A stretch of DNA of 64,000 nucleotides from Catenuloplanes niger (GTDB lineage: Bacteria; Actinomycetota; Actinomycetes; Mycobacteriales; Micromonosporaceae): NCBI RefSeq assembly GCF_031458255.1, contig NZ_JAVDYC010000001.1, forward strand, positions 744,001-808,000. Reading direction: 5' to 3'. The notes under the pieces were generated by a model that had not been told where the DNA came from, made no database searches, and saw only the letters and a program-made list of their open reading frames with translations. Of this stretch, positions 10,205 to 40,870 are shown in pieces (position 1 is the first letter of the stretch; each line of letters starts with the position of its first letter). A program made the position numbers and the translations under genes.

Positions 10205-13200
10205 TCAGCGGAGGGTGATCGCGTACACCTGGATGCGGTTGTCGTCCGGGAGTGTGAGCGAGCGGATCTGTTTGCCCGGGGTGAGCGGCACGCTGATCGC
10301 GAACAGGCTGACCGGTGGGCCGTCGACGCCCTGGCCGGCCTTGATCCGGTGCGGCATGGCGAGCGCGGTGGTGGAGCCGGCCGCGGGTGCGCCGCACCAG
10401 TCCGCGACCGTGACCGCGCGGGTGTCGGTGCCGCCGTCCGCGTAGCCGATGGTGAACGCGCCGGTCACCGGGCCGTTGTGGCTGGTCGCGACCAGTTCCA
10501 GGGCGTTGTGCGCGCCCTGCGGCAGCACCAGCGACTGGCCGGTCGCGGTGACGAGGTTGGGTGCGGTGCCGGCCGGGTCCGGTGCCTGGTAGGTGACGCC
10601 GTTCCAGGTGACCGGGCCGGCCGGCGGGAGCAGCGCGGCGTCGTAGCTCCAGCCGACGGTGTCGAAGTTGCCCTCCGTGGTCGCCGCGACGGTGGCGGTG
10701 CCGTCCCGGGTCAGTTCCGGGGTCAGGTCGACGGCGCAGGACGTGCCGGGCGCGCAGGTCAGCGCGGGTCGGACCGCGACCGAGGCGGTCCGGGTGACCG
10801 TGTTCGCCCCGCCCACGGTGACCTGCACCGGGTACGTCCCGTCGGCGACCCCGGCCGGTGCGGTGACCGTGACGGTGGCGGTCGTCGCGACCGGCAGATG
10901 CGACGACCGCAGCGCCGGCAACCGCGTGGGGCTGACCGCGACGGTCCAGCCGGCCGGGCCGGTCGCGGTGATCGTGGGCCGCAGCGTGGTCGGCGACTGG
11001 GCCACCACGTCGACGGTGAACGTGGTGGTGCCGCCGGCCGGCAGCGCGGCCGACGCGGGCCGCAGCGACGCGTCGACGTGGCGGCGGCCGTCCTGCGGCG
11101 CCCGGTTCACCGACGGCGGCTCCGCCTGCGGCGCGGTGCCCCAGCGGGACGGGCGGCTGCCGACCGCGTGGGCGAGCGTGCCGCCGTCCGCCACCGCGTC
11201 CCACGTCACCCAGTTCCGGGTGAGCCGGCCGCCGTCCAGCCGGACGTCCTGCACGTAGCGCGCGGTGTCGGAGACGCCCGGCGCGGTGATGCGCAGCGTG
11301 CCGGTGCCGGTCCGCACGGTCGCGCCCGGGAAGACCGGGCTGGACACCGTGAGGAAGTCCGCGCCGCTCATCGTCGGGTAGAGGCCCAGCGCGGAGAAGA
11401 CGTACCAGGCGCTCATCGTGCCGAGGTCGTCGTTGCCGGTCATGCCGTCCGGCCCGGTGGTGAACAGCGTCATCGCGGCCCGGACCACGGTCGCGGCCTT
11501 CGCGGGCGCGCCGGCCCAGTGGTACATGTACGGCGCGAGCAGGTCCGGCTCGTTGTTCGGGTTGTAGGTCGGCTTGGCGTAGTAGTCGTACGGCGCGGCG
11601 ATCCAGTCGGTGCGCGCGGTGCCGGCCGGGTCGGTGAGCAGCTTGTCGTGCACGAAGAACTCGTCCAGCCGTTGCTCGGCGGCGCGCCGGCCGCCCATCA
11701 GCGAGACCAGCCCGGCCGGGTCCTGCGGCACCAGCCACTGGTACTGGTGGGCGCCGCCCTCGTGGAACTGGTGCGACGCCGCGACCGGGTCGTACGGCGT
11801 GAGCCAGGTGCCGTCGACCGTGCGCGGGCGGAACTGCCGGGTCGCGGAGTCCCACAGGTTGCGGTACCACTGGCCGCGGGCCGCGAACATCCGCGCGTCC
11901 TGGGTCTTGCCGAGCCCCTGGGCCATCAGCGCGAGCGCGGCGTCGGCGGCGGAGTACTCGAGCGTGGCGGACGCCGGGTGGACGCAGTCGTTGTCGCCGC
12001 CCTTGTGCACGCAGTCGGTGCCGAGCCGCAGCCCGGACGGGATGTAGCCGCGGTCGGCGTAGAAGTCCTGCCCGGTGCGCCCGTTGTACGGCGAGTCGGC
12101 CGGCGGCTGGCTGGTGGCGTTCGCCCGGAGCAGCGCATAGGCCTCCTCCTCGTGCCCCTCGAGCAGGCCCTTCGACCAGTTCTCGACGAGGAACGGGGTG
12201 ACCGGGTCGCCGGTCATGATGTTGGTCTCGCTGTTCGCCAGCGCCCACCGGGGCAGCCAGCCGCCGTCCCGGCCGATCGCCAGCACGGAGAGCGCGACGT
12301 CGCGGGCCACGTCCGGTGCGATCAGCTCGAGCAGCTGGTTCTGCGGGCGGTACGTGTCCCACAGCGAGAAGTTCTGGTACGGCGTGTACCCGTCCGCGGT
12401 GTGCACCCGCCGGTCGAAGCCGACGTAGCGGCCGTCCACGTCGCCGGCCACGTTCGGGTGCAGCAGCGAGTGGTAGAGCGCGGTGTAGAAGACCGCGCGG
12501 CGCTCCTCCGTACCGCCGTCGATCGTGATCCTGCGCAGGGCGTCGGCCCACTCGGCGCGCAGCGCGTCGCGGACCGCGTCGAAGTCGAAGCCGTCGCCGG
12601 TCTCCGCGGTCAGGTTCTTCCGCGCTCCGTCCGCGCCGGTGTAGGACAGCCCGACCTTGACCACTACGTCCCGGTCGGTACGGGTGTCGAACGTGACGTA
12701 GGCGCCGTTACCGCCCGCGCCGGCCGCGTCCCGGCTGCCGGCCGTCAGGTCCGCGCCGCGCCAGGTGCCGAACGCGGTGAACGGCCGGTCGAACTCGGCC
12801 GTGAACCACACGGTGTGGTCGTCCTTGCCGGCGCAGAAGTTGCCCGCGTTCACCCGGCCGGTCAGCGTCCGGTCGCCGACCACGTGGATCTCCGAGCCGA
12901 ACACGTTCTGGTTCGCCTTGCCGGTGTTGAACAGCACGTTCGCCTGCTCGGTGGCCGGGAACGAATAGCGCTGCCAGCCGGTGCGCGCGGTCGCGGTCAG
13001 TTCCGCGTCGATGCCGTAGCGGCTCAGCCCGACCCGGTAGTAGCCCGGGCTCGCCTCCTCGTCGTCGTGCGAGAACGCGGACCGGTACGCGGTGTGGTCG
13101 GTACTGCCGACCGCGCCGGTGGTCGGCATGATCGGCAGCTCACCGGCGACGCCGCAGCCGACGCCGGACAGGTGCGTCTGACTGAAGCCGTAGATCGAGT

Positions 13201-13402
13201 CGGCGAGGTAGTCGTAGCCGCCCTGACCGCCGGTGTCCGGGCTGACCTGCACCATGCCGAACGGCGCGGCGGCGCCGGGGAACGTGTTGCCGAAGTTCTG
13301 CGTGCCGACGAACGGCCGGACCAGATCGACGGGCTCGGGCGGTGCGGCCACCGGCGCCTCCGGAACGAGCAACAGCGCGGCCACCAGCACATTGCGAATC
13401 AT
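10205..13402 (-). CDS. Secreted GH92 family glycosidase (alpha-mannosidase type)
   Basis: A 1065-residue secreted enzyme. Signal peptide MIRNVLVAALLLVPEAPVAA is followed by VRPFVGTQNFGNTFPGAAAP, the start of the GH92 beta-sandwich. The catalytic (alpha/alpha)6 domain includes SLWDTYRPQNQL and, at about residue 650, GNDDLGTMSAWYVFSALGLY, a family hallmark. GH92 enzymes are calcium-dependent exo-alpha-mannosidases acting on N-glycans or fungal/yeast mannans. From about residue 790 there is an Ig-like NEW3 domain, then a C-terminal beta domain ending IQVYAITLR that resembles an NPCBM-type module. ATG 13402 is preferred over the start 5 codons upstream because CGGGAG precedes it. Confidence 0.9.
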   Translation of the reverse strand: MIRNVLVAALLLVPEAPVAAPPEPVDLVRPFVGTQNFGNTFPGAAAPFGMVQVSPDTGGQGGYDYLADSIYGFSQTHLSGVGCGVAGELPIMPTTGAVGSTDHTAYRSAFSHDDEEASPGYYRVGLSRYGIDAELTATARTGWQRYSFPATEQANVLFNTGKANQNVFGSEIHVVGDRTLTGRVNAGNFCAGKDDHTVWFTAEFDRPFTAFGTWRGADLTAGSRDAAGAGGNGAYVTFDTRTDRDVVVKVGLSYTGADGARKNLTAETGDGFDFDAVRDALRAEWADALRRITIDGGTEERRAVFYTALYHSLLHPNVAGDVDGRYVGFDRRVHTADGYTPYQNFSLWDTYRPQNQLLELIAPDVARDVALSVLAIGRDGGWLPRWALANSETNIMTGDPVTPFLVENWSKGLLEGHEEEAYALLRANATSQPPADSPYNGRTGQDFYADRGYIPSGLRLGTDCVHKGGDNDCVHPASATLEYSAADAALALMAQGLGKTQDARMFAARGQWYRNLWDSATRQFRPRTVDGTWLTPYDPVAASHQFHEGGAHQYQWLVPQDPAGLVSLMGGRRAAEQRLDEFFVHDKLLTDPAGTARTDWIAAPYDYYAKPTYNPNNEPDLLAPYMYHWAGAPAKAATVVRAAMTLFTTGPDGMTGNDDLGTMSAWYVFSALGLYPTMSGADFLTVSSPVFPGATVRTGTGTLRITAPGVSDTARYVQDVRLDGGRLTRNWVTWDAVADGGTLAHAVGSRPSRWGTAPQAEPPSVNRAPQDGRRHVDASLRPASAALPAGGTTTFTVDVVAQSPTTLRPTITATGPAGWTVAVSPTRLPALRSSHLPVATTATVTVTAPAGVADGTYPVQVTVGGANTVTRTASVAVRPALTCAPGTSCAVDLTPELTRDGTATVAATTEGNFDTVGWSYDAALLPPAGPVTWNGVTYQAPDPAGTAPNLVTATGQSLVLPQGAHNALELVATSHNGPVTGAFTIGYADGGTDTRAVTVADWCGAPAAGSTTALAMPHRIKAGQGVDGPPVSLFAISVPLTPGKQIRSLTLPDDNRIQVYAITLR

Positions 13403-13499
13403 CGACACTCCCGTCACCGATGTGTGATCACGTTGCCATCACCGAGCGACGAAAGTCAATGATCCTCAGGTTCGGGCCGCACCGGCCGATGAGCACCGG

Positions 13500-15080
13500 G
13501 TGGGTACGTCGCGGAGGCGCTGGACCAGCGTCCTGCTCGTCGCGCTCGTGCTGGCCGGCGGTCTGGTGATGACCGTGGCCGCGCACTCGGTGGTCCGGGC
13601 CGGCGACGCCCGGTACACCGCCGCGGCCATGGACGCCAGCGCCGGGGACGTGACCGCCGCGGTCACGCACGCGGCCACCGACTACGGCAGCGTGCTGACC
13701 GATCTGGCCTACTCGCTGGCCTCGCAGACCGACCTGTACCGCGACGACTTCGTCCGGATCACGGCCGGGCTGACCAACGTCCGGCTGCACGGCGCCACCC
13801 GGATCGGCTTCGTCGTGCCCGCCACCACCGCGCAGATCCCGGACCTGCAGCGGCGCTGGCGCGGGTACGGCGCGGACGGGCTGACGTTGCGCCCGGCGGA
13901 CGGCGCGGACAACCACTCGTTCGTGATCTACGACAAGGTCTTCGACGGGTACCCGGACCAGCAGGGCGTCGACCTGGCCGGGAACCCGGCCGCGGCCGAG
14001 GTGCTGCGGCAGGCCCGCAGCCGGCGCGCGCTGGCGATCAGCCCGGCGTTCCAGCCCGTCCTGGACAACGAGACCGCGACCGGGTCCCGGCGCACGTTCG
14101 TGCTGCTCGCGGCGCCGGTCCTGTCGTTCGCGGACAGCGCGGACGCGTTCCGCGGCTGGGCCGTGATGAAGCTGCGCACCCAGGACTTCCTGGCCCAGAC
14201 GCTGCTCGACCGCGGCGAGAACGCGGTGCAGGCCACGGTCGTCGACCCGGACGCCGGCATCGAACTGGCCTCGGTCGCGCCCGGCCGGCGCGCGGCCGGC
14301 ACCACGCTGGACCGCCGGCACGAACTGACGGTCGGCGGGCGGCGGTGGCGGGTCTCGATGGCGCCGACCACGCGCCTGGTCTCGGACGCGGAGGGCGGCC
14401 TGAGCGAACTCACGCTCGCGTCCGGGGCCGCGCTGACCGTGATGCTCGCCGCGATGACCGGCATCCTGGCCGGCAGCCGGGGGCGCGCGCTGGACCAGGT
14501 CGACCGGGCCACCACCGCGCTGCGCCTCGACATCGCGCGGCGCGAGCAGGTCGAGGCGCAGCTGCGCGAGCGGGAGCAGGAGCTGCAGCACCTCGCGTTC
14601 CACGATCCGCTGACCGGGCTGGCGAACCGGCTGCTGTTCTACGACCGGCTGACCCACGCGTGGCACACCCACGCGCGGGAGGGGCGGGCGTTCGCGGTGC
14701 TGTTCATCGACCTGGACGGCTTCAAGGAGATCAACGACCGGCACGGTCACCAGGCGGGCGACACGGTGCTGCGCACGGTCGCGGACCGGCTGCGGACCGG
14801 GCTGCGGGCGGCGGACACGGTCGCGCGGTTCGGCGGCGACGAGTACGCCATCATCCTCGAGTCCCTCGCCGGCCCGGCCGACGCCCGGGTCGCGGCCGAA
14901 CGGGTGGTCACGGCGGTGCAGGCGCCGATCACGCTGGAGGACGGCACCGTCGCGACGGTGTCGGCCAGCGTCGGGATCGCCGTCAACCGGCCCGGAGCCG
15001 ACGTCGACGACATCATCCGCGACGCGGACACCGCGATGTACACGGCGAAGACCGCCGGCAAGAACCGCTTCGCCTTCTGA
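13500..15080 (+). CDS. Membrane diguanylate cyclase with CHASE-type sensor (CHASE-GGDEF)
   Basis: A 526-residue protein. Transmembrane helix 1 (SVLLVALVLAGGLVMTVAAH) precedes an extracytoplasmic region of about 240 residues. The stretch RLHGATRIGFVVPAT and the later YDKVFDGYPDQQGVDLAGNP are CHASE-like. A second helix (about residues 300-322) and a short linker helix are followed by a GGDEF domain: FHDPLTGLANRLLFYDRL, FIDLDGFKEINDRHGHQAGD, and at residue 445 the active-site signature GGDEY, a tolerated form of GGDEF. It probably makes c-di-GMP in response to a small external ligand. No EAL domain is present. The GTG start is weakly supported. Its stop abuts a fold-back repeat. Confidence 0.87.
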   Translation: MGTSRRRWTSVLLVALVLAGGLVMTVAAHSVVRAGDARYTAAAMDASAGDVTAAVTHAATDYGSVLTDLAYSLASQTDLYRDDFVRITAGLTNVRLHGATRIGFVVPATTAQIPDLQRRWRGYGADGLTLRPADGADNHSFVIYDKVFDGYPDQQGVDLAGNPAAAEVLRQARSRRALAISPAFQPVLDNETATGSRRTFVLLAAPVLSFADSADAFRGWAVMKLRTQDFLAQTLLDRGENAVQATVVDPDAGIELASVAPGRRAAGTTLDRRHELTVGGRRWRVSMAPTTRLVSDAEGGLSELTLASGAALTVMLAAMTGILAGSRGRALDQVDRATTALRLDIARREQVEAQLREREQELQHLAFHDPLTGLANRLLFYDRLTHAWHTHAREGRAFAVLFIDLDGFKEINDRHGHQAGDTVLRTVADRLRTGLRAADTVARFGGDEYAIILESLAGPADARVAAERVVTAVQAPITLEDGTVATVSASVGIAVNRPGADVDDIIRDADTAMYTAKTAGKNRFAF

Positions 15081-23156: not shown

Positions 23157-23528
23157 CCGCGGGGTGGTGATCGCCGACGCCGGCGAGTTCGCCACGGGCA
23201 GCCGCGTCGAGGTGCAGCGGGCCGGCGAGGTCGCGTACCGGCCGCACCGGTGGTATGCCGTCGACGCCGCGCTCCTCACGCCGTTCTGCGGCGCGTTGCC
23301 GGCCGCCCCGATCCCGAGGGCGCTCCATGCCCGGGCGGTGCGGTGGGGGCGCCGGCACCGCGGTGCCGCGCGGCCGGAAACGGTGAGCGGGGTGCCACCG
23401 GCCGGCTCGACACGCAAAGTCACCACAAAACTACCCAAAAAATTCTCGAATCCGTGGCAGCAGCGGCGCCGGGTGACCGCGTTCAGGGGGTGGAGAACAA
23501 CCGGCGAGGCCCGAGGAGAACAACACCG
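23157..23528 (+). other. 372-nt gap with a coding-like first part and an AT-rich promoter-like end
   Basis: From GTG 23164 to about 23400 the plus-strand frame has strong G/C third positions (VVIADAGEFATGSRVEVQRA and onward), as real genes here do. The signal stops abruptly at about 23405, and the frame then runs into the start of the GH114 gene. It may be a decayed or truncated gene. Positions 23412-23457 are unusually AT-rich for the window and probably hold the GH114 promoter. Confidence 0.25.
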
Positions 23529-24557
23529 ATGGCATCCAAGCGCAGGCGGATCACAGTGGGAGTGACGGTCACCGCGACCGTGGCAGTGCTCCTCGGGGTC
23601 GGCATCGGCACCGCGAACGCGGGCACCCGCCCCTGGTGGGACCGCTGGAAGCCGCGGCCCAAGCCGGTCGCGACCGCGCCCGCGACGCCGACGCCCACGC
23701 CGTCCGCCGCGGCCACCACGACCGCGCCCGCGCCGAGCGTGTCGCCGTCGCGGAGCACGCCCGGCACGACGCCGTCCGCGTCGAAGCCGGCCGGCACGCC
23801 GGCGGCCGCCCCGACGACCGGCGCACCCACCGGCACCTGGACGCCGCCGCCGGCGAACGCGGGCTTCGACTACCAGATCGGCGGGGTCTACCCGCCGCCG
23901 GCCGGCGTGACCGTGGTCAGCCGGGACAGTGAGGCCAGCCCGGCCGCGGGCATCTACAACATCTGCTACATCAACGCGTTCCAGGTGCAGCCCGGCGCGC
24001 AGTCGTGGTGGGAGAAGAACCACAACGACCTGCTGCTGCGCGACAAGGGCGGCAACCTCGTGATCGACGAGGACTGGGACGAGGCGATGCTCGACTTCTC
24101 CACCGCGGCCAAGCGCACCGCGCTGACCAAGGTCGCGGCCGAGTGGATCGACCGGTGCAAGGCGAAGGGCTTCCAGGCCATCGAGCCGGACAACCTCGAC
24201 TCGTACACGCGGTCCAACGGCCTGCTGACCCAGGCGCAGGCGGTGGAGTACGCGGCGGCGCTGTCCGCCTACGCACACGGCAAGGGCCTGGCCGTCGGGC
24301 AGAAGAACCTGGCCGAGCTGTCCACCGCGAACGCGCGGAAGGCCGGTTTCGACTTCGCGGTCGCGGAGGAGTGCGGGGCCTGGAACGAGTGCGACCGCTA
24401 CACCGCCACGTACGGTAACAACGTCGTCGTGATCGAATACACTCAGAGCGGCTTCACGAAGGCGTGCAACGGGTTCGGCAGCAAGCTCTCCATCGTCCTG
24501 CGCGACGTCGACGTGACGGCCCCAGGGTCTCGTTCGTACGTATTCAAGGGTTGCTGA
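23529..24557 (+). CDS. Secreted GH114-type glycosidase (endo-alpha-1,4-polygalactosaminidase family)
   Basis: A 342-residue secreted protein. A signal peptide (RRRITVGVTVTATVAVLLGV ending at TANAG) and a Pro/Thr/Ala-rich linker to about residue 108 precede a TIM-barrel domain. GFDYQIGGVYPPPAGVTVVS, CYINAFQVQP, DEDWDEAMLDFS and KGFQAIEPDNLDSYTRSNG are typical of GH114, whose first-studied member cleaves alpha-1,4-galactosaminan, an exopolysaccharide of fungal and bacterial biofilms. The Asp/Glu pair in EPDNLD is the likely active-site region. The RBS GAGGAGAA lies 8 nt before ATG. A hairpin follows the stop. Confidence 0.87.
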   Translation: MASKRRRITVGVTVTATVAVLLGVGIGTANAGTRPWWDRWKPRPKPVATAPATPTPTPSAAATTTAPAPSVSPSRSTPGTTPSASKPAGTPAAAPTTGAPTGTWTPPPANAGFDYQIGGVYPPPAGVTVVSRDSEASPAAGIYNICYINAFQVQPGAQSWWEKNHNDLLLRDKGGNLVIDEDWDEAMLDFSTAAKRTALTKVAAEWIDRCKAKGFQAIEPDNLDSYTRSNGLLTQAQAVEYAAALSAYAHGKGLAVGQKNLAELSTANARKAGFDFAVAEECGAWNECDRYTATYGNNVVVIEYTQSGFTKACNGFGSKLSIVLRDVDVTAPGSRSYVFKGC

Positions 24558-24585
24558 GCTGGTTTCCCTATTCCGCTACGCCCTC

Positions 24586-24621
24586 GAGATCTCCGGTGCC
24601 CCTCGCGGGCCCGGAGATCTC
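24586..24621. terminator. Hairpin between the GH114 and sigma factor genes
   Basis: GAGATCTCCGG (24586-24596) pairs with CCGGAGATCTC (24611-24621). It starts 28 nt after the GH114 stop and ends 24 nt before the sigma-factor ATG, so it may end one transcript or shape the leader of the next. Confidence 0.45.
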
Positions 24622-24645
24622 CGGCGTCGAGGCGAACAGGCCACG

Positions 24646-25179
24646 ATGACCACCAACGAGTCGACGACGGCCGTCACCGGCCGTGCGGAGGACTTCGACG
24701 ACTTCGTGCACGGCCGCGGGCGGGCACTGCTGCGGTTCGCGTACGTGTTGTCCGGTGACGCGCACCTCGCGGAGGACCTGGTCCAGGAGGTGCTGGCGCG
24801 CATGCACCGGCGCTGGCCCAAGGTCACCGCGATGGACAGCCCGGAGGCGTACGTGCGTACCGCGATCGTGCGCCAGTTCGTCTCCTGGCGGCGGCGCTTC
24901 TCCGCCCGGGAGGCGATCCTCGCGGACGTGCCGGAGCCGGCCGGCTTCGACGAACCGCAGGCGCGGGTGGCCGCCCGCGACCAGATGTGGCAGCTGATGG
25001 CCGGGCTGCCGCGCTCCCAGCGCGCGGTGCTGGTGCTGCGCTTCTACGAGGACCTGCCGGACGACGAGATCGCCGCGCTGCTGGGCTGCGGGCAGTCCAC
25101 GGTCCGGTCCCAGGCGGCCCGCGCGCTGGCCAAGATGCGGACCATGTTGAGTGAGAGAGGAGTGGGCGGCGATGGATGA
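24646..25179 (+). CDS. SigE-family ECF-type RNA polymerase sigma factor
   Basis: A 177-residue sigma factor of the actinobacterial SigE subfamily. Region 2 is FDDFVHGRGRALLRFAYVLS with GDAHLAEDLVQEVLARMHRRW. Region 4 is LPRSQRAVLVLRFYEDLPDD then EIAALLGCGQSTVRSQAARAL, the helix-turn-helix that contacts the -35 element. It overlaps the next gene by 8 nt. That gene encodes a membrane protein with a short cytoplasmic N-terminus, which makes a sigma/anti-sigma pair likely. The target regulon is unknown. Confidence 0.9.
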   Translation: MTTNESTTAVTGRAEDFDDFVHGRGRALLRFAYVLSGDAHLAEDLVQEVLARMHRRWPKVTAMDSPEAYVRTAIVRQFVSWRRRFSAREAILADVPEPAGFDEPQARVAARDQMWQLMAGLPRSQRAVLVLRFYEDLPDDEIAALLGCGQSTVRSQAARALAKMRTMLSERGVGGDG

Positions 25180-26236
25180 ACTGGACCGGTTGCTGGCGGA
25201 GACGATGCACGACGCGGCCGGCCGCGCCCCCTCCGACGACAACCTGCTGCGCGGCGTGCACGCGCGCTCCCGGGTGATCCGCCGGCGCCGCACGATCACC
25301 ACCGGCGTGTCCGCGGTGGTGGCCGTGGTCGCGGTCGGCGTGCCGGTCGTGGCCGTGCTGGCCGTCCGCCCGGAGCCGGTGGTGCCGCCGGCCGCCACCG
25401 CACCGGCCGTGCCGCCCTCCCCCACCGCCGCGGCCACCACGTCCCCGTCGCCGTCGGCCGCGCCGCCGTCGAGCAGCCCGCCGTCGTCGGTCGCGCCGCC
25501 GCCGGAGAGCGAGGCGCCGGCCGCCACCGCGGTGACGCTGACCGAGGGGTGGACCGCGCCGGTGTTCCCGTACGCGCTGCCGGCCGCGGACGACCGGCGC
25601 GCGCCGGTGGCCACGATGAGCGGCGGCGACCTGATCGGGTTCTTCGAGACCACCGACCCGGAGCGGGAGGCGGACATCACGGTCACGGTGTCCGGTGCGC
25701 GGCCGTCGTTCGGCACGCCCGGCACGGAGACCACGCGGCAGGTGCGCGGCCGGGCCGGCACGCTGCGGACCGTCGACGTGCAGCCGGCCCGGCAGCTCAC
25801 GCTCTACTGGCAGGAGTCGCCGAACCGGTGGGTCACGCTGACCACCGACGACACGTACACGCCGGACGAGGTGGTCGAGTGGGCCGGCGCGCTGGTCGAG
25901 GCGTCGATCGAGGTGCAGCCGCCGTTCCGGCTCGGCCTGTCCCCGGCCGGCCTGACCACCACGACGGTCACCAAGTCTCGGATGATCTTCACGGGTCCCG
26001 GTGACGTCAGCCTGATCCTGCGGAAGCGGCAGCAGCTGACCGGCGCCGACCGGACCGTCAACGGGTACGCCGCGGCGCTGACCCGGGACGACGCAGGGGC
26101 CCGGCTCACCGTCGACGTGCGCGACTGGGACGCCACGCTGGAGATCACCGTCACCGGCGACCTCACCGTCTCCGACGCGGACCTGCTCCGCCTCGGCACC
26201 GGCGTGCAGCTGCTGACCCGCTCCGACCCGGAGTAG
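25172..26236 (+). CDS. Membrane protein, probable anti-sigma or sigma-partner
   Basis: A 354-residue protein with a cytoplasmic N-terminus (MDELDRLLAETMHDAAGRAP, about 40 residues), one membrane helix (TTGVSAVVAVVAVGVPVVAV), a Pro/Thr/Ser stalk to about residue 120 and an extracytoplasmic domain rich in beta strands. The layout and the 8-nt overlap with the sigma gene are those of SigE-family partners. No zinc anti-sigma H-x3-C-x2-C motif is visible, so an anti-sigma function is inferred from position only. The start is ATG 25172, after AGAGGAG. The stop is followed by a perfect-stem hairpin. Confidence 0.7.
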   Translation: MDELDRLLAETMHDAAGRAPSDDNLLRGVHARSRVIRRRRTITTGVSAVVAVVAVGVPVVAVLAVRPEPVVPPAATAPAVPPSPTAAATTSPSPSAAPPSSSPPSSVAPPPESEAPAATAVTLTEGWTAPVFPYALPAADDRRAPVATMSGGDLIGFFETTDPEREADITVTVSGARPSFGTPGTETTRQVRGRAGTLRTVDVQPARQLTLYWQESPNRWVTLTTDDTYTPDEVVEWAGALVEASIEVQPPFRLGLSPAGLTTTTVTKSRMIFTGPGDVSLILRKRQQLTGADRTVNGYAAALTRDDAGARLTVDVRDWDATLEITVTGDLTVSDADLLRLGTGVQLLTRSDPE

Positions 26237-26256
26237 CGAGCCTTTCCCCAGGGGGG

Positions 26257-26294
26257 TCCCGCCCGTCCGCTGACGCCTCAGCGGACGGGCGGGA
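26257..26294. terminator. Perfect 17-bp hairpin between convergent genes
   Basis: TCCCGCCCGTCCGCTGA (26257-26273) pairs exactly with 26278-26294 around a CGCC loop. The stop codon of the minus-strand SARP fusion lies in the stem (26278-26280). A bidirectional terminator is very likely. Confidence 0.75.
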
Positions 26295-28296
26295 ACTGAC
26301 CGTAGTCCTGCACGATGCCGGACGTCAGCGTCATCAGCTCGGGCGACTCGCGTTGCAGGTCCGGGTCCTTGAAACTGAACGCGAACAGCCCGTCCGCGAC
26401 CAGCCGGGCCAGCACGTCCGGCGGGAACGTGCGGTGCAGGTCGTCCCGGTAGACCGCGAGCGAGTCCTCGTGCGGGCCGTAGTGGGAGACCATCACCGGG
26501 CCGTGCTCGCCGAGCACGCCGACCATCTGCGCGATGTGCTCCGCGTTGCCGTCCTCGGTGAACGCGCCGAAGCTCTGGAAGTCGGACGCGCGCATGACCT
26601 CCACGAAGTACTGGAACATCGACCGACCCGCGCCGTTCTCCGGGTCGTCGTGCGAGGCGTTCCAGCCGTCCCAGTTCAGCGCGATCCGCAGGTTCGGCGC
26701 GGCGGCCCGCATCACGCGCATCAGCTCGGTGTACCGCTCCTTCAGCGCCAGGTAGTAGTTCGTGGTCGCCGGATCGTCGAGATAGCCGTTGTCCGCGCAC
26801 GTGAGGTGCTGCAGGCCGGAGAACATCGACACGTAGAGCGGCGGGCCGTCCGCCGGGCCCGCGAACGCCGCCGCCAGCCGCCGCATGTCCGGCACGAACT
26901 CGTCGGACAGCGGGTAGGGCTGGCCGCACGCGTGCCCGAACCGGGTGTCCACCGACTCGCCGTCCTCCCAGGTCCCGACGATCACGTGCATCGCGAGCCC
27001 GGACGCGTACGTCTGCGGGATCACGTCCGCCCGCCAGCCCTCGAAGCGGTCCAGGTCGCCCTGCTTGTGGTACCACGTGGTGACCATGCCGACACCGGAC
27101 TGCATCAGCGGTGACTTGCGGGCCCGCACCGGGTCCGGCCCGAGCCCGAAGAGGATCTTCGGCGCGGCCGCCGCGCCGCCCGCGACGCCACCGGTCTGCG
27201 GGAGACCGCGGCCGGCCACCGTGGCCGAGCCGCCGGCCAGCACCAGCACCCCGGCCACCACCAGCGCGAGCAGCGCGGCCGGCACCCGCCGGCCGTCCGT
27301 CCCCGCCGGCCGCCGGCGGGGCGCGGCCGGGACCGGCGACGGCACGGCCGGCGCACCCGGACCGGGCACGCGCGACACCGGCGCGCCCGAACCGGAACCG
27401 TTGGACGCCGGCACGCCCGGACCGGAAGGCCGGGACCCGGACGGGCCGGCGGCGTGCGGTGCCGGCGCCGGGTGGGCCCGCACCGGGGCGTCCGCCACCG
27501 CGACCGCGGACCGCGGGCCGGACGCCGGGACCGGCCGGTCGGCCGTCTCGGCGAGCAGGGCACGGTACGCCTCGCGCAGCCGGCTGCCCGGTTCCGCACC
27601 GAACGTGTCGAGCAGCAGCACGCGCGCCGCCTCGTAGCTGGCCAGCGCGTCCACCTGCCAGCCGGCCGCCCGCTGCGCGACGACCAGCCGCTCCCAGGCC
27701 GGCTCGCGCAGCCGGTCCTCGGTGAGCATGGCGCGGGCCAGCGCGATCGCCTCGGCCGGCTCGCCGGTTGCGATCAGCGCGTCGGCCAGCGCGTACCGCG
27801 CGGTCCAGCGCAGCTCGTCCAGGTGCCGGACGGTGACCGTGTCGAGCGCGTCCTCCTCCGGGTCGCCGCGCCACAGCGCCAGCGCGCGCTGCTCCAGCAG
27901 CGCGGCCTCGGCCGGGTCACCCCGGCCGAGCGCGGCCACGCCGGCCTCGGCCAGCGCGGTGAACACGTCCGCGTCCAGCTCACCGTCCGCGACCGTGAGC
28001 CGGTAGGCGCCACCACGGCCGGCCAGGCGCGCCTCCCCGTCCGTACCCGGTGGAAGGATCTTGCGCAGTTGGTGGATGTAGGTCTTGATGCTGCCGCTGA
28101 TCGAGCTGGGATAGTCGGTGCGCTCCCAGAGCGCCGCGGCCAGCGTGTCGTTGTCGACCCAGCGGTTGCGCCCGCGCAGCAGCGCGGCGAGCAGCGTGCG
28201 GCGGCGGCCCGGCGGCAGCGGCACGACGGTTCCGTCCGTGCCGGTCACGGCGAGCGGGCCCAGCACGGCGAACAACGGCTCCACGGGATGAGGCAA
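26278..28296 (-). CDS. SARP/BTAD regulator fused through a membrane helix to an extracytoplasmic glycosidase-like domain
   Basis: About 672 residues from the preferred TTG (28296, AGGAG at 6 nt); GTG 28299 or 28329 are alternatives. Order: OmpR-type winged helix (FAVLGPLAVTG, then GRRRTLLAALLRGRNRWVDN, SGSIKTYIHQLRKILPPG); BTAD helical domain to about residue 255 (LDADVFTALAEAGVAALGRG, ALASYEAARVLLLDTFGAEP); a Pro/Gly/Ala linker; one membrane helix at about 334-355 (PAALLALVVAGVLVLAGGS) preceded by Arg-rich residues, giving N-in/C-out; then about 290 residues outside (PKILFGLGPDPVRARKSPLM, MHVIVGTWEDGE, LRIALNWDGWNASHDD). The outer part looks like a TIM-barrel glycosidase, but I cannot name its family or catalytic residues. 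It is divergent from a secreted GH16 enzyme, so a membrane glucan-sensing activator is the working idea. Confidence 0.8.
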   Translation of the reverse strand: MPHPVEPLFAVLGPLAVTGTDGTVVPLPPGRRRTLLAALLRGRNRWVDNDTLAAALWERTDYPSSISGSIKTYIHQLRKILPPGTDGEARLAGRGGAYRLTVADGELDADVFTALAEAGVAALGRGDPAEAALLEQRALALWRGDPEEDALDTVTVRHLDELRWTARYALADALIATGEPAEAIALARAMLTEDRLREPAWERLVVAQRAAGWQVDALASYEAARVLLLDTFGAEPGSRLREAYRALLAETADRPVPASGPRSAVAVADAPVRAHPAPAPHAAGPSGSRPSGPGVPASNGSGSGAPVSRVPGPGAPAVPSPVPAAPRRRPAGTDGRRVPAALLALVVAGVLVLAGGSATVAGRGLPQTGGVAGGAAAAPKILFGLGPDPVRARKSPLMQSGVGMVTTWYHKQGDLDRFEGWRADVIPQTYASGLAMHVIVGTWEDGESVDTRFGHACGQPYPLSDEFVPDMRRLAAAFAGPADGPPLYVSMFSGLQHLTCADNGYLDDPATTNYYLALKERYTELMRVMRAAAPNLRIALNWDGWNASHDDPENGAGRSMFQYFVEVMRASDFQSFGAFTEDGNAEHIAQMVGVLGEHGPVMVSHYGPHEDSLAVYRDDLHRTFPPDVLARLVADGLFAFSFKDPDLQRESPELMTLTSGIVQDYGQFPPVR

Positions 28297-28322: not shown

Positions 28323-28488
28323 CCGTCACAGCCTAGGACAAGAGGTGCCGCCTGCGTCACCCGTCCGTACGCGTTCTGAACTGCGGTTTCACCATTTGCT
28401 CACCGCGACCTGACCGGAGCGCGGGCACAGTGGACGGCCCGCGGGTGTCCCCTGTTCCCGGGTCATGACGCCCGGCCGCGTGCGTCCC

Positions 28489-28533: not shown

Positions 28534-29868
28534 ATGCGGACTTATCTGGCGGCCGCGGCCGCCGGGCTCGTGGTGATCACCGGAACCGGGATCACCGTCG
28601 CCCAGGCGGCACCCGCGGCCGACGGCGGCGTGCGCACCGGGTCGCTGATCAACACGTGCGCGAATCCGGTCGTCGACCGGGACATCACCGGCTGGGGCCG
28701 GCACGGCACCGGCGCGACCGGCTCGCGGGTCGCGGTCGGCGCGCACGTCGCGGCCGACCACGCCTACCGGCAGCCGTCCACGAACGGCGTCAACCCGGAG
28801 ATGTACCTGCCGCAGAAGGACGTCACCGAGGCCGAGCGGTGGCTGTTCGCGATGGACACCTGGGTCAGCGGCACCACCGCGGCCGTGACCGCGCGGATGC
28901 AGGTGGACTGGTACGGCGCGGGGAGCGTCTACCTCGGGCACTCGAACGGCACCGAGGTCGGCGTCGAACCGAACGCGGCGGAGACATGGACGCGGGTCGC
29001 CGGCGAGTTCACCGCGCCGGGCGGCGCCACCCGGGCGAACGTGACCGCGCGGCTGACCGGGCCGGCCGGCATGACCTGGTCCGCGACCGCCTGCGACTAC
29101 CAGCCGATATCGCTGCCCGGACCGGACCCGACCACGCCGCCCCCGACCACGCCGCCGCCCACCGGCGCGGACACCGCGGCGCAGCGGTTCAACTGGGGCA
29201 CCGCGCTACCCGCGTCCGACGAGTTCAACTACGGCAGCACGGCCGCGCCCGCGAAGCCGGACGCGACGAAGTGGACGCTGGCCGGCAGCGAGGCGAGCGG
29301 CTGCTGGGAGGGGCACAACGGCAACGGCCGCCGCTGCGAGGAGAACAGCCGCGTGCTCGGCGGCATCATGCGGATGACCGGCGAGGCCGGCGGCGACACC
29401 GGGCTACTGGGCAGCACGTTCGCCCAGAAGTACGGCCGGTGGGAGGTGCGGGCCCGTTCGCAGGCCACGTCCGCGAACAACGGCAAGCAGTACCACCCGG
29501 TGCTGCTGCTCTGGCCGGACAACGAGCAGTGGCCGGCCGGCGCGGAGTACGACTACCTGGAGAACGGCGCACCCGGTGAGCAGTGCGCGGAGGCGTTCAT
29601 GCACTACCCGAACCACCAGCCCAAGGTGCAGGAGCACGCGCAGAAGTGCACCGTGGACCTGACCCAGTGGCACAACTTCGGGTTCGAGTGGACGCCGCAG
29701 CACGTCAAGGGCTTCATCGACGGTCAGCAGTGGTTCGTGTTCAGCGCGGACTGCATCCAGTGCGCGCCGGGCCCGATGTTCCAGACGATCCAGCTGGACA
29801 ACTTCCACGGCACCGGCCTGCAGACCGCGATCTTCGAGGTGGACTGGGCGCGGGTCTACTCGCTGTGA
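28534..29868 (+). CDS. Secreted GH16 family endo-beta-glucanase-like enzyme with N-terminal carbohydrate-binding-like domain
   Basis: A 444-residue secreted enzyme. The signal peptide is RTYLAAAAAGLVVITGTGIT ending at AQAAPAAD. Residues about 30-190 form a beta-sandwich resembling a CBM4/9-type module, followed by a Pro-Thr linker (about 195-212). The GH16 jelly roll runs about 215-444: DEFNYGS, WEGHNGNGRRCEENSRV, YGRWEVRARSQATSANNG, and the catalytic E-x-D-x-x-E as GAEYDYLENG (about residue 340). GH16 enzymes cut beta-1,3(4)-glucans, agar-type or xyloglucan chains; the exact specificity is not readable. Four Cys in the catalytic domain suggest disulfides. The RBS is AGAGGGAGGG. It overlaps the convergent LuxR gene by 13 nt. 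Confidence 0.88.
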   Translation: MRTYLAAAAAGLVVITGTGITVAQAAPAADGGVRTGSLINTCANPVVDRDITGWGRHGTGATGSRVAVGAHVAADHAYRQPSTNGVNPEMYLPQKDVTEAERWLFAMDTWVSGTTAAVTARMQVDWYGAGSVYLGHSNGTEVGVEPNAAETWTRVAGEFTAPGGATRANVTARLTGPAGMTWSATACDYQPISLPGPDPTTPPPTTPPPTGADTAAQRFNWGTALPASDEFNYGSTAAPAKPDATKWTLAGSEASGCWEGHNGNGRRCEENSRVLGGIMRMTGEAGGDTGLLGSTFAQKYGRWEVRARSQATSANNGKQYHPVLLLWPDNEQWPAGAEYDYLENGAPGEQCAEAFMHYPNHQPKVQEHAQKCTVDLTQWHNFGFEWTPQHVKGFIDGQQWFVFSADCIQCAPGPMFQTIQLDNFHGTGLQTAIFEVDWARVYSL

Positions 29869-30377
29869 GACCGGTGGCCGGCGAGCCCCTCCGTGGTGTA
29901 GAGCCCGTCGGCCACCGCCCGCACCAGCAGGTCCGCCTTCGTCGGCAGGTGGTGGCCCAGCTCCGCGTACTTCTGCCGGATCCGTTTGATGTACATCTCC
30001 ACGGTGTGCGGGGAGATGCCCATCCGGCGGGCCACCGACGCCTTGGTCAGCGAACCGAGCCACCAGCACAGCGCCGCGTGCTCGCGCGCGGACAGCTGCG
30101 GAACGGTCCTGGGAGCCGTGCCCCGCCCGTGTGGCACGGCCTCCAGGATCTCGGCGATCAGCTCGCGCCGGTCCCGGTCCACGGTGAACACCACGACCGG
30201 GCGGTGGTGCAGGCCGAGAACGCGCGCGCCGGAGTCGCACACCAGCACGTCGGCGTCGTCGGCCTCGGCCACCACCAGCCGCGGATCCTGCCGCAGCCAG
30301 GACCGCACACCCTCGGCAACCACCGGCCGCATGCCGGCGACCCCGACGCGGATCGTCACCACATCCATGACAACCAT
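29856..30377 (-). CDS. LuxR-family regulator with degenerate receiver-like N-terminus
   Basis: A 173-residue protein. Residues 1-90 follow the outline of a receiver domain (VTIRVGVAGMRPVVAEGVRS, DADVLVCDSG, VVVFTVDRDRRELIAEILE) but lack the acidic pocket and a convincing phosphoacceptor context, so phosphorylation is doubtful. Residues 100-165 are a LuxR HTH (LSAREHAALCWWLGSLTKAS, VARRMGISPHTVEMYIKRIR). ATG 30377 or 30368 could start it. The 3' end overlaps the GH16 gene, so antisense effects are possible. It has no partner kinase. Confidence 0.82.
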   Translation of the reverse strand: MVVMDVVTIRVGVAGMRPVVAEGVRSWLRQDPRLVVAEADDADVLVCDSGARVLGLHHRPVVVFTVDRDRRELIAEILEAVPHGRGTAPRTVPQLSAREHAALCWWLGSLTKASVARRMGISPHTVEMYIKRIRQKYAELGHHLPTKADLLVRAVADGLYTTEGLAGHRSHSE

Positions 30378-30435
30378 CGTGGGTACGCCGGTGAGCGCCC
30401 GGTCAGAATCGAGTGAATCCGGGTGAATCCGCCGG

Positions 30436-37380: not shown

Positions 37381-38295
37381 TTATCCGGCCGCGCGCTCGC
37401 CGGCCGGGCCCGCGGCCTCGCCCCGCTCGCCGGGCGGGCCCGTGACCTGCCGGTGTTCCTCGGCCGGGGGCGCGAGGTGTGCGCGGGCCAGCGTGGCGAA
37501 CTCGGCCGGGCGTTCCAGCTGGGGCATGTGGCCGGTGCGCGGGAACAGGTGCCAGCGGGCGTGCGGCAGGGCCGCGCGGGCGGCCGCCAGGTGCGCGGCC
37601 GGCAGGATCAGGTCCCGTTCACCCCAGACGATCAAGGTCGGTCTCGGGGTACGGGACACCCGCGCCAGCAGCTCCGACCGCCACGGCCCGGCGATACCCC
37701 GGAAGCCGCCCAGTTCCCGTGCGATCTCCAGGTAGACCGCGGCGAAGTCGGGCTGCCGGGCGAGCCGGATCGCGGTGGCGACGCGTTCCTCGGTGACCAG
37801 CGACCGGTCCGCGAAGATCGACGCCTCCGCGCGCCGGGCGATCCGCGGGCGGACCCGGCCGAGCAGCGGCCGGCCCAGACCGGGCACCGCCAGCAGCCGC
37901 ATCGCGAACGTGACCTCCCGGCCGAAGCCGGCGCTGTTGACCAGCGTCAGCGTGCGTACCCGGGCGGGGTCCCCGGTCAGCATCCGCATCGACACGGCCC
38001 CGCCCAGCGAGTTGCCGATCAGGTGGACCGGCCGGGTCTCGCCGAGCGCGTCCAGCGTCGCCCAGACGCCGCCGGCCAGCGATGCCAGCGTGACCGGCTC
38101 GCGCAGTCGCCGGGACAGCCCGAAGCCGGGCAGGTCCACGCTGATCACCCGGTACGCGTCGTCGAGCAGCGGATGCTGCGGCGACCAGTCCTCCAGGCTG
38201 CGGCCGATGCCGTGCAGCAGCACGACCGGCGGCGCGTCCGGCGCACCGGTCGCGTGGTAGCGGATCCGGCTGCCGCGCACGTCGATCCAGCTCAT
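37381..38295 (-). CDS. Alpha/beta-hydrolase, end of the mymA-like operon
   Basis: A 304-residue hydrolase. VVLLHGIGRSLEDWSPQ gives the oxyanion loop (H-G), LIGNSLGGAVSMRM holds the nucleophile Ser in G-N-S-L-G, VWGERDLILP the acid Asp and FPRTGHMPQLERP the catalytic His. The last 20 residues are Gly/Glu/Pro-rich and look dispensable. The ATG overlaps the stop of the FMO-SDR gene by 4 nt. An esterase or lipase step after oxidation is suggested by comparison with LipR in the mycobacterial mymA operon. ATG 38295 is the first in-frame start with family similarity. Confidence 0.85.
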   Translation of the reverse strand: MSWIDVRGSRIRYHATGAPDAPPVVLLHGIGRSLEDWSPQHPLLDDAYRVISVDLPGFGLSRRLREPVTLASLAGGVWATLDALGETRPVHLIGNSLGGAVSMRMLTGDPARVRTLTLVNSAGFGREVTFAMRLLAVPGLGRPLLGRVRPRIARRAEASIFADRSLVTEERVATAIRLARQPDFAAVYLEIARELGGFRGIAGPWRSELLARVSRTPRPTLIVWGERDLILPAAHLAAARAALPHARWHLFPRTGHMPQLERPAEFATLARAHLAPPAEEHRQVTGPPGERGEAAGPAGERAAG

Positions 38296-40595
38296 CGGGG
38301 TGCTCCCGCGGCCGCCCGCCGGCCGTACGCCGCGGCGGCCGAGGTGATCGCGTGCATGAGGCGCGCGTGGCCGTTCGGCAGCAGCCGGGCCAGCAGGTCC
38401 GGCACGGCCGCGTCCGCGCCGATCAGCAGCCGGGCCCGGCGCCGGGCGACCGCGTCCAGGATCCGGGCGGCGGCCCGTTCCGGCGGGTGGCGCAGCAGCG
38501 CGGCGAACAGTCGCCGGTTCGGCTCCACCTCCGCCGCCGGCACGTCGGCGCCGGTCAGCGCGCGCGCCGCGATGCCGGTCCGCACGCCGCCGGGGTGCAC
38601 CGTGGTCACGCCGACGCCGCGGTCCGCCAGTTCGCTGTGCAGCACCTGGCTGAGCCCGCGCAGCGCGAACTTGCTGGCCGTGTACGCGCTGTGCCCGGCC
38701 GGGGCGATCAGCCCGAACAGGCTGGACACGTTGACCAGGTGGCCGCCCGGCTCCGCGGTGAGCGCGGGCAGCAGCGCGTGGGTGAGCAGCATCGGCGCGC
38801 GGAAGTTCACGTTCATCACGGTCTCGAACTGTTCCACGGTGACCTGGTCGAACCGGCCGCCGAGCGCGACGCCGGCGTTGTTGACCAGCAGCCCGATCGC
38901 CGGGTGCGCGGCCAGCACCTCGGCCGCGACGCGCCGCACCTCGTCCCGGTCCGCGAGGTCGGCGACGATCGCCGCCACGGTCAGGCCGGGGCGGGCGGCG
39001 CGGAGGCGGGCGGCCAGCGCGGCGAGCCGGGCGGCGTCCACGTCGACCAGTACCAGGTGGCTGCCGCGCGCGGCGAGGCCGTGCGCGAGGTGCGCGCCGA
39101 TGCCGCCGGCCGCGCCGGTGACCACGGCGGTGCGGCCGGCGAACCGGTAGTGCCGAAGGCGGGTCATCGGTCGTCTCCCTTCGAAACGCATGTCCGCGGT
39201 GACGTCGGCGTACGGCAGCGTGAGCCGGTCGCGCAGGTAGTCCTGCCGGACCAGCCACGGGTCGCGGTCGCCCTGCCGGGGGAAGAGGTCGAGCGAGCGC
39301 CGTACGTACCCGGAGCTGAGGTCGAGCAGCGGGCGGCCGCGGACACCGGGTTCGGCGGGCGTGGCCGTGCGCAGGCCGTGCCGGTCCAGGTGGCGGAGCA
39401 GCCGGCACACGTACCGGTGGCACAGGTCGGCGCGCAGCGTCCAGGACGCGTTGACGTAGCCGATGCAGTACGCCAGGTTCGGCACGCCGCTGAGCATCAG
39501 TCCGCGGTACGCGGCCCGCTCCCCGATCGTCACGGGCGTGCCGTCGACGCGCAGCCGCACGCCGCCGAGCGGCCGCAGGCGCAGCCCGGTCGCGGACACC
39601 ACGACGTCCGCCTGGATCACCCGGCCGTCGCGCAGCCGGACACCGTCCGGCACCAGCCGGTCGACGTGCCCGGTCCGCACGGAGACCCGCCCGGCCCGGA
39701 TCTCCCGGTAGAGGTCGCCGCCGGGGATCACGCAGAGCCGCTGGTCCCACGGCTGGTAGGCGGGCGTGAAGTGCGCGTCGACGGCGGCGGGGTCGCGCAG
39801 GTAGGCGAGCGCGGCCCGGCGCAGCGCGGCCCGGACCAGGTGGGGGTGCCGCCGGGAGACCCGGTAGAGGCCCTGGGTCAGCGCGGCCCAGGTGGTGCGG
39901 ATGACCGCGTCGGCGGCGCGGGCGGGCAGCAGCCGCCGGACCGGCCGGCCGATCGGGTCCCGGCGGGGCAGCGGGATCAGGTACCCGGGTGACCGCTGCA
40001 CCATGGTGACGTGCGCGGCGTCGCGGGCCATGGCCGGCACCAGCGTCACCGCGGTCGCGCCGCTGCCGATCACCACCACTCGCTTGCCGGCGTGGTCCAG
40101 GTCCGCCGGCCAGAACTGCGGGTGCACCAGCCGCCCGCCGAAGTCGCCGCCGAAGTCGGGCCGGTGCCCGGCGTCGTAGTCGTAGTAGCCCGCGCAGGCA
40201 TAGAGGAAACCGCAGGTCAGCTCCGTGCCGTCGGCCAGCCGGACGGTCCACCGCGCGTCCGGGGAGGACCAGTCCGCCGCGACCACGCGCGCACCGAACC
40301 GGATGTGCGGGGTGATGCCGCCCTCGTCCGCCAGGTCCTGGACGTAGGCGCGGATCCGGTCGCCGGACACCAGCGCCTCCGGGCCGCGCCACGGCCGGAA
40401 CGGATAGCTGAACGTGACCATGTCGGAGTCGGACCGCACGCCCGGGTACCGGAACAGGTCCCAGGTGCCGCCGATCGCGTCCCGCGCCTCGAGGATCGCG
40501 TACGTCCGGTGCGGCAGCGCCGCCCGCAGCCGCCAGGCCGCGCCGATGCCGGAGAGCCCGGCGCCGATGATCAGCACGTCGTAGTGGCCGGTCAC
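38292..40595 (-). CDS. FAD monooxygenase (FMO/BVMO type) fused in frame to a short-chain dehydrogenase
   Basis: A 767-residue protein. Residues 1-475 form a flavin monooxygenase: DVLIIGAGLSGIGAAWRL (FAD), FRYPGVRSDSDMVTFSYPFR (FMO/BVMO fingerprint region), VVVIGSGATAVTLVPAM (NADP). Residues about 480-767 form a classical SDR: GRTAVVTGAAGGIGAHLAHG (cofactor), LLVNNAGVALGG, VNVSSLFGLI and SAYTASKFAL (catalytic Ser-Tyr-Lys). No stop separates the halves. Between them GAAGGGAG precedes an in-frame ATG at 39167 (MTRLRHYRFAG), so the SDR may also be made alone. GTG 40595 overlaps the upstream stop (GTGA). The separate genes correspond to mymA- and sadH-like enzymes. The fusion would need resequencing to exclude an assembly error. 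Confidence 0.82.
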   Translation of the reverse strand: MTGHYDVLIIGAGLSGIGAAWRLRAALPHRTYAILEARDAIGGTWDLFRYPGVRSDSDMVTFSYPFRPWRGPEALVSGDRIRAYVQDLADEGGITPHIRFGARVVAADWSSPDARWTVRLADGTELTCGFLYACAGYYDYDAGHRPDFGGDFGGRLVHPQFWPADLDHAGKRVVVIGSGATAVTLVPAMARDAAHVTMVQRSPGYLIPLPRRDPIGRPVRRLLPARAADAVIRTTWAALTQGLYRVSRRHPHLVRAALRRAALAYLRDPAAVDAHFTPAYQPWDQRLCVIPGGDLYREIRAGRVSVRTGHVDRLVPDGVRLRDGRVIQADVVVSATGLRLRPLGGVRLRVDGTPVTIGERAAYRGLMLSGVPNLAYCIGYVNASWTLRADLCHRYVCRLLRHLDRHGLRTATPAEPGVRGRPLLDLSSGYVRRSLDLFPRQGDRDPWLVRQDYLRDRLTLPYADVTADMRFEGRRPMTRLRHYRFAGRTAVVTGAAGGIGAHLAHGLAARGSHLVLVDVDAARLAALAARLRAARPGLTVAAIVADLADRDEVRRVAAEVLAAHPAIGLLVNNAGVALGGRFDQVTVEQFETVMNVNFRAPMLLTHALLPALTAEPGGHLVNVSSLFGLIAPAGHSAYTASKFALRGLSQVLHSELADRGVGVTTVHPGGVRTGIAARALTGADVPAAEVEPNRRLFAALLRHPPERAAARILDAVARRRARLLIGADAAVPDLLARLLPNGHARLMHAITSAAAAYGRRAAAGAPR

Positions 40596-40870
40596 GACGC
40601 CACCCGCCAGGGCGGCCGGCCGGTGCCGGTGAGCCGCACGGCGCCCCACGGGTCCGGCTCGCTCAGCCGGACCGGCACCGCCGGCGCTCCGGGGAGGACC
40701 AGCCGGGCCTCGCCGAGCCGCGCGCGCAGTGCGGTGTGCGGTGCGGTCCGGCCGGCCCAGCGGAACCGGCCCTCGACCGGCTCGAACCGGGCCGACAACC
40801 GGATCTCCACCGGGTACGCGGTGCCGCCCGCCTGCACCACGGCCGGCCCGCGGTACTCCTCGTCGGTCAT
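40592..40870 (-). CDS. DUF4873 protein
   Basis: A 92-residue protein beginning MTDEEYRGPAVVQAGGTAY. The charged start, the beta-rich pattern (YPVEIRLSARFEPVEGRFRW) and the GAVRLTGTGRPPW end fit DUF4873, a small domain usually found beside or fused to FMO-type monooxygenases in actinobacteria. It overlaps TetR upstream (4 nt) and the FMO-SDR gene downstream (4 nt). The role is unknown; it may bind lipid or assist the oxygenase. Confidence 0.8.
   Translation of the reverse strand: MTDEEYRGPAVVQAGGTAYPVEIRLSARFEPVEGRFRWAGRTAPHTALRARLGEARLVLPGAPAVPVRLSEPDPWGAVRLTGTGRPPWRVAS

Follow-up and report, generated by a model that had tools for sequence, protein, structure and literature searches.

The gene at 26278..28296 on the minus strand of the window, that is, of the 64,000-nucleotide stretch of Catenuloplanes niger DNA that was analysed, encodes a SARP-type regulator in which a winged helix and a BTAD domain are followed by a predicted membrane helix and a glycosidase-like outer barrel, and this barrel has lost a glutamate that its relatives outside the SARP fusions keep. 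The preliminary description of a membrane-anchored SARP with a glycosidase-like outer domain was confirmed in this respect, and its interpretation was supported. We consider it probable that the protein acts as a single-protein transmembrane switch, the outer barrel of which binds a glycan and the SARP half of which drives a neighbouring GH16-like gene.

Architecture and predicted topology of the fusion protein

The gene starts with a TTG at 28296, preceded by AGGAG, and stops at 26278. In the sister genome G003, the TTG is kept, and a CTG replaces the upstream GTG. Large overlapping frames, such as 24824-27874 on the minus strand, were discarded, as their codon-position GC was not gene-like. 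The N-terminal half has the features of SARP/AfsR proteins, namely an OmpR-type winged helix and a BTAD domain. The winged helix (Trans_reg_C; 28039..28206, minus strand) fell just short of the Pfam cut-off with 25.2 versus 26.2 bits and is indicated by matches to EmbR and AfsR in sequence and model, and the BTAD domain (27553..27978, minus strand) was detected with 84.3 bits at a cut-off of 22.1 (E 1.4e-23). EmbR and AfsR were the best sequence matches of residues 1-251, and Foldseek comparison of the full-length model returned EmbR at 2.3e-13 and AfsR at 1e-12. This model reached a pTM of 0.47, with pLDDT values below 50 for residues 254-376, which comprise linker and helix, and the relative placement of the two halves is therefore not predicted. 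The Pro-rich linker itself (27286..27540, minus strand; pLDDT below 50) varies in length among the relatives in the alignment and has a dN/dS of 0.56 to 1.08.

An Arg-flanked membrane helix after the DNA-binding and BTAD domains had been proposed from the sequence, and a hydropathy scan indeed predicted such a helix at 27229..27285 (minus strand), with a hydropathy of 2.43, a basic N side, and a net charge of +4 before the helix. The scan detected one strongly hydrophobic stretch ahead of the barrel in all nine intact SARP fusions, as well as in a kinase fusion described below, with mean hydropathies of 1.89 to 2.92 and net charges between +2 and +6 over the 15 residues N-terminal to it, and no second segment of at least 1.6 was found in any of these proteins. 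The standalone rows L017, L023, and L024 were left out of the hydropathy and selection comparisons. By prediction, winged helix, membrane helix, and outer domain are united in one polypeptide, and the homologous outer domains are found behind a membrane helix or a lipobox and not as cytoplasmic domains unrelated to glycosidases. All 26 full-length copies of the domain alignment (9 SARP fusions, 16 standalone copies, and 1 kinase fusion) share two invariant barrel cysteines, which would suit an extracellular disulfide.

To place the protein among the BTAD proteins of its own genome, we can compare 27 BTAD frames, 12 of which are complete and 15 of which are cut at the stretch end, so that a more distant helix would escape detection. 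A clear helix after the BTAD domain is present in two of the 12 complete frames, namely in the SARP fusion gene and in L042 (G000:C1, BTAD at 8703232-8703663), which has a linker rich in Pro, a single membrane helix, and an outer part of about 140 residues without Pfam match. As this example suggests, membrane SARPs may form a wider group. Weak segments after the BTAD domains of L046 and L054 (1.69 and 1.62) were rejected, as they look like parts of an ATPase-like domain.

The outer barrel, its relatives, and its gene neighbours

The outer domain (26287..27162, minus strand), which had been taken for a TIM-barrel glycosidase, is a beta/alpha barrel of clan GH-A according to the structure model, the structure comparison, and the alignment. 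In the ranking of Foldseek itself, glycosidases were mixed with pyruvate kinase and methionine synthase, and the VIA ranking of the structure matches favours glycosidases. The rows of GH26, GH1, and GH5 are only 1-2 Z apart, and we therefore do not claim a nearest family. Pfam families were not detected for the barrel in any of 19 members at E up to 10. Among solved structures, the best phmmer match was a halogenase with an E of 0.75, and a profile search matched an AI-designed barrel (E 0.006), in which none of the matching stretches passed by itself.

Relatives of the outer domain are rare. Whole-genome searches detected it in seven of 61 relatives; a further candidate, L008 in G056 (E 5e-4), was excluded, since its frame reads as a DinG-type helicase and the match covers about 80 residues. 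In overlapping search sets of genus, family, order, and phylum, in which the best 6 or 7 candidates per genome were scored in the large sets, the domain was found in 4/5, 8/350, 5/397, and 2/396 genomes, respectively. It was also present in two of three genomes of the family of G040 and, again among the best 6 or 7 candidates per genome, in 1/341 genomes of the family of Nonomuraea guangzhouensis. A pattern-seeded scan of species genomes contributed 19 loci.

Three architectures of the outer domain were observed. The SARP fusion is represented by nine intact copies in eight genomes, which span three families, and by one frame-broken copy (G766). The Ser/Thr kinase fusion was found once, in Actinophytocola algeriensis (L025 6981-8897; Pkinase E 7.2e-40), where the kinase is followed by a helix and then the barrel, an arrangement that a portable receptor would be expected to show. 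The standalone copies comprise 16 full-length ones, one with a broken frame, and one fragment; most of them follow an N-terminal helix or a lipobox, and Frankia and Saccharibacteria bins are among their sources. The Saccharibacteria label of the bins with L020, L026, and L028 denotes a lineage distant from Actinomycetota, and transfer or mis-binning may be involved. In the tree, the SARP copies are together across a branch with 89/75 support and the standalone copies across a branch with 100/99, and the placement of L007, L009, and the kinase copy is unsure due to their long branches.

The gene neighbourhood points to glycans. The divergent neighbour of the SARP gene (28534..29868, plus strand) encodes a GH16-like secreted protein (PF00722, E 4.8e-6) that keeps an EYDYLE sequence, and a LuxR-type (GerE) HTH protein is encoded at 29856..30377 on the minus strand (PF00196, E 8.8e-8). 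Of the 10 SARP fusion loci, 8 have an adjoining GH16-like gene. These loci belong to two families, and the gene is divergent in G000, G001, G003, G004, G649, and G631 and convergent in G040 (contig 2) and G766. EYDYLE or EYDYFE, which we take to be a form of the GH16 motif ExDxxE, is present in all eight of these neighbours. No GH16 gene was found in the available DNA around the Nonomuraea copy or the other G040 copy. The LuxR-type gene is near the SARP fusion in 7/10 loci, and in Nonomuraea it lies immediately upstream of the SARP gene on the same strand. The four genus copies sit in a wider shared synteny and hence are not independent, so that the linkage is supported by two families for GH16 and by two for the LuxR-type gene. 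No GH16 or LuxR-type neighbour was detected at E 1e-4 in 17 standalone loci (L011-L024, L026-L028) or at the kinase locus, with flanks that vary and are in part short.

Several other genes of the window were noted. At 23250-26236, a GH114 protein (E 3.6e-55), a SigE-family ECF sigma factor, and a 361-residue protein without Pfam match are kept together in the genus. A GH92 protein is encoded beside a CHASE-GGDEF diguanylate cyclase at 10205-15080, parts resembling a flavin monooxygenase and a short-chain dehydrogenase share one frame at 38292-40649, and a large protein at 58983-62330 has PA14, CBM35, ricin-type lectin, and 3-keto-disaccharide hydrolase parts.

It is in principle conceivable that the barrel of a transmembrane SARP senses wall material, a protein partner, or stress, with the GH16 enzyme acting on the wall of the producing cell or of a rival, and the occurrence of standalone copies in lineages of so different lifestyle as Frankia and the Saccharibacteria bins would be in line with this. 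However, the GH16 adjacency and the glycosidase fold both point to glycans, and we regard wall or stress sensing as unlikely.

In clan GH-A enzymes, strands 4 and 7 each end in a catalytic glutamate. We located these positions in the barrel from the DSSP assignment of the model together with the alignment, and not from a superposition. In the window, the codon at the end of strand 4 (26815..26817, minus strand) encodes Gly. All 16 standalone copies and the kinase copy have Glu at this position, whereas the SARP fusions have Gly (8/9) or Arg (1/9). At the end of strand 7, Glu is absent from all 26 copies: the standalone copies have His throughout (16/16), the SARP fusions His (4), Tyr (3), Asn (1), or Gln (1), and the kinase fusion Ala. 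The strand-4 sequence of the latter is HEVN, which is presumably like the GH26 motif. The usual pair of glutamates is thus missing from all nine SARP fusions, for which a check for conserved catalytic Asp/Glu pairs had been suggested.

The barrel has nevertheless not decayed, as its dN/dS is 0.14 to 0.62 against five relatives, in comparison to 0.56 to 1.08 for the linker, and it stays under purifying selection despite the missing strand-4 Glu. Loss of this residue in a conserved barrel fits a receptor that derives from an enzyme fold, as has been described for the GH10 domain of RsgI6 (PMC4711584). One could argue that the barrel is still an enzyme with an unusual residue set and that the SARP half reports turnover or product, given the clan GH-A fold, the Asp at strand 6 (position 195) that is invariant in 26/26 copies, and the Asp or Glu at strand 5 (position 166) in 9/9 SARP fusions. 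With neither of the usual glutamates in any SARP fusion, we consider this distinctly unlikely. Of the earlier idea of a polysaccharide-binding or -cleaving sensor, the binding part is retained as a hypothesis, and cleavage is improbable for the SARP-fused form. As the standalone copies keep the strand-4 Glu, the barrel family may include enzymes.

Operator-like repeats at the locus

Alignment of six SARP/GH16 intergenic regions yielded the pattern GGTSA-N6-GGTSA-N6-GGTSA, with three units at 11-bp spacing. SARPs bind direct repeats of heptamers. Units of 11 bp are classical for them according to the available text of PMC10972967. The predicted operator of the window is at 28389..28415 (minus strand), between the SARP and GH16 starts, and it is the only exact match in the window (0 in 100 shuffles) and in the 9.74 Mb genome. 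In nine genomes, there were 19 exact matches, 12 of them at the SARP fusion locus, in comparison to 4 matches with a reversed control. The locus accounted for 1/1 matches in G000, 3/5 in G001, 2/2 in G003, 2/2 in G004, 2/4 in G649, 1/1 in G631, 1/3 in Nonomuraea, and 0/1 in G040, and G002, which belongs to the genus of the window but lacks the fusion, had no match anywhere. Since the intergenic regions served to derive the pattern, exact matches in them are in part a matter of construction. Independent of this derivation is the site in front of the LuxR-type gene, which is exact in G001, G003, G004, G649, and Nonomuraea; it has one mismatch in the window (30390..30416, plus strand), and no exact copy was found in G631. 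With up to one mismatch, the own genome contains 8 sites versus 2 in the control. Two of them lie at the SARP fusion locus, 2 kb apart, and three of the other six are inside likely coding frames.

An unsupervised scan for 11-bp periodicity gave a strong signal only in G649 and G631 (0/300 shuffles each), weak or borderline signals in G000 (0.07) and G003 (0.04), and unremarkable ones in G001 (0.31) and G004 (0.17, with the best at a different spot). The Nonomuraea SARP gene, the G040 genes, and the G766 copy had no signal in their upstream regions, and the GGTSA-type repeat is missing at the G040 and G766 loci, although GH16 adjoins two of these three. Just upstream of the SARP start of G631 (L085, about 7160-7240) lie tandem repeats with units of about 13 bp, which were not observed in the five other aligned intergenic regions.

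A distance of 53 bases separates the intergenic site from a TAGGCT that resembles a -10 element of the SARP gene, and the GH16 ATG lies 118 bases downstream of this site. The second site is 12 bases from the listed start of the LuxR-type gene. Distances of 12 and 53 bases are not the usual activator spacing; they are compatible with an activator or a repressor and do not settle the matter. A fusion that represses GH16 and its own gene until it is relieved by ligand would be in line with these distances. However, the repeats are oriented alike with respect to GH16 and the LuxR-type gene, the BTAD domain is kept, and SARPs are usually activating according to the available text of PMC10972967, and a repressor therefore seems quite improbable to us.

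A proposed switch and its relation to known regulators

In the glycan-sensing switch that we favour, the SARP half would reside in the cytoplasm and be connected by the flexible linker and the single membrane helix to the outer barrel. Binding of a glycan or oligosaccharide to the barrel without strand-4 Glu would change the oligomeric state of the SARP half or release it, and the SARP half would then act on the 11-bp-spaced repeats upstream of GH16, of the fusion gene itself, and of the LuxR-type gene. The output of secreted GH16 enzyme would be raised as the main effect, accompanied by autoregulation and control of a LuxR-type co-regulator. Of this scheme, the domain order, the barrel fold, the missing Glu, the linkage of the genes, and the repeats come from the computation itself, and the location in the membrane, the ligand, the binding of DNA at the repeats, the sign of regulation, and the route of the signal are inferred. 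The signal could cross the membrane by dimerisation or by cleavage in the helix, and the long disordered linker would permit either. In ToxR-like proteins, the signal is held to cross by dimerisation. Cleavage within the helix is described for RsgI in the available text of PMC12203970. A reading as an ordinary SARP without sensing, in which the C-terminal fusion is accidental or degenerate and for which the rarity of the domain in the family (8/350 genomes, best candidates scored) might speak, is very improbable indeed in view of the low dN/dS of the barrel and the nine intact fusions in three families.

AfsR, EmbR, DnrI, and the small, medium, and large SARPs have the winged helix and the BTAD domain in common with the protein described here, and its putative operator shows the 11-bp spacing of SARP repeats. 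The SARP groups in the available text of PMC10972967 carry NB-ARC, TPR, or LAL-like parts, whereas here a membrane helix and an outer barrel follow the BTAD domain; the main text of that paper never uses the word "membrane". Among the open-licence papers listed by literature searches, none dealt with a membrane-helix SARP. ToxR/CadC-like regulators likewise combine a cytoplasmic winged helix, one membrane helix, and an outer sensor in one chain, as predicted here, and differ in that the present protein has a BTAD domain between the DNA-binding domain and the membrane and a GH-A barrel outside. The main text of the survey PMC10269533 contains neither BTAD, SARP, nor "glyco". The ToxR/CadC-like logic suggested in the preliminary description was strengthened by the kinase fusion of the same outer module and by the SARP-type repeat beside the adjacent GH16 gene.

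A membrane sensor with a glycosidase-type outer domain is known from RsgI6 of Clostridium thermocellum, an anti-sigma factor, the outer GH10 domain of which has very low activity, still binds polysaccharide, and controls glycosidase genes, as stated in the available text of PMC4711584. The barrel family is different, and RsgI6 holds a sigma factor, whereas here the DNA-binding protein itself bears the sensor. GH26 and other clan GH-A glycosidases differ from the barrel by their identity of only about 10%, by the lack of a Pfam match in 19/19 members, and by the glutamate pair that the SARP fusions miss. Transmembrane one-component regulators and the SARP output family are both known; their combination and the barrel family are apparently unnamed, as no name for either was found in profile libraries and open-licence papers, in agreement with the earlier impression.

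There is, in our judgement, an even chance that this unnamed clan GH-A pseudo-glycosidase is a portable glycan receptor of Actinomycetota, employed on a SARP and on a kinase, and that the SARP form constitutes a membrane-anchored class with its own operator and a regulon of itself, GH16, and the LuxR-type gene. SARPs are the textbook activators of antibiotic clusters and are regarded as cytoplasmic. If true, a membrane SARP with an outer barrel would let this family read extracellular signals directly and would tie a SARP to glycan breakdown, with an enzyme fold turned into a receptor on two outputs. Both the predicted operator and its target are concrete enough for a direct test, and the module could become a glycan biosensor.
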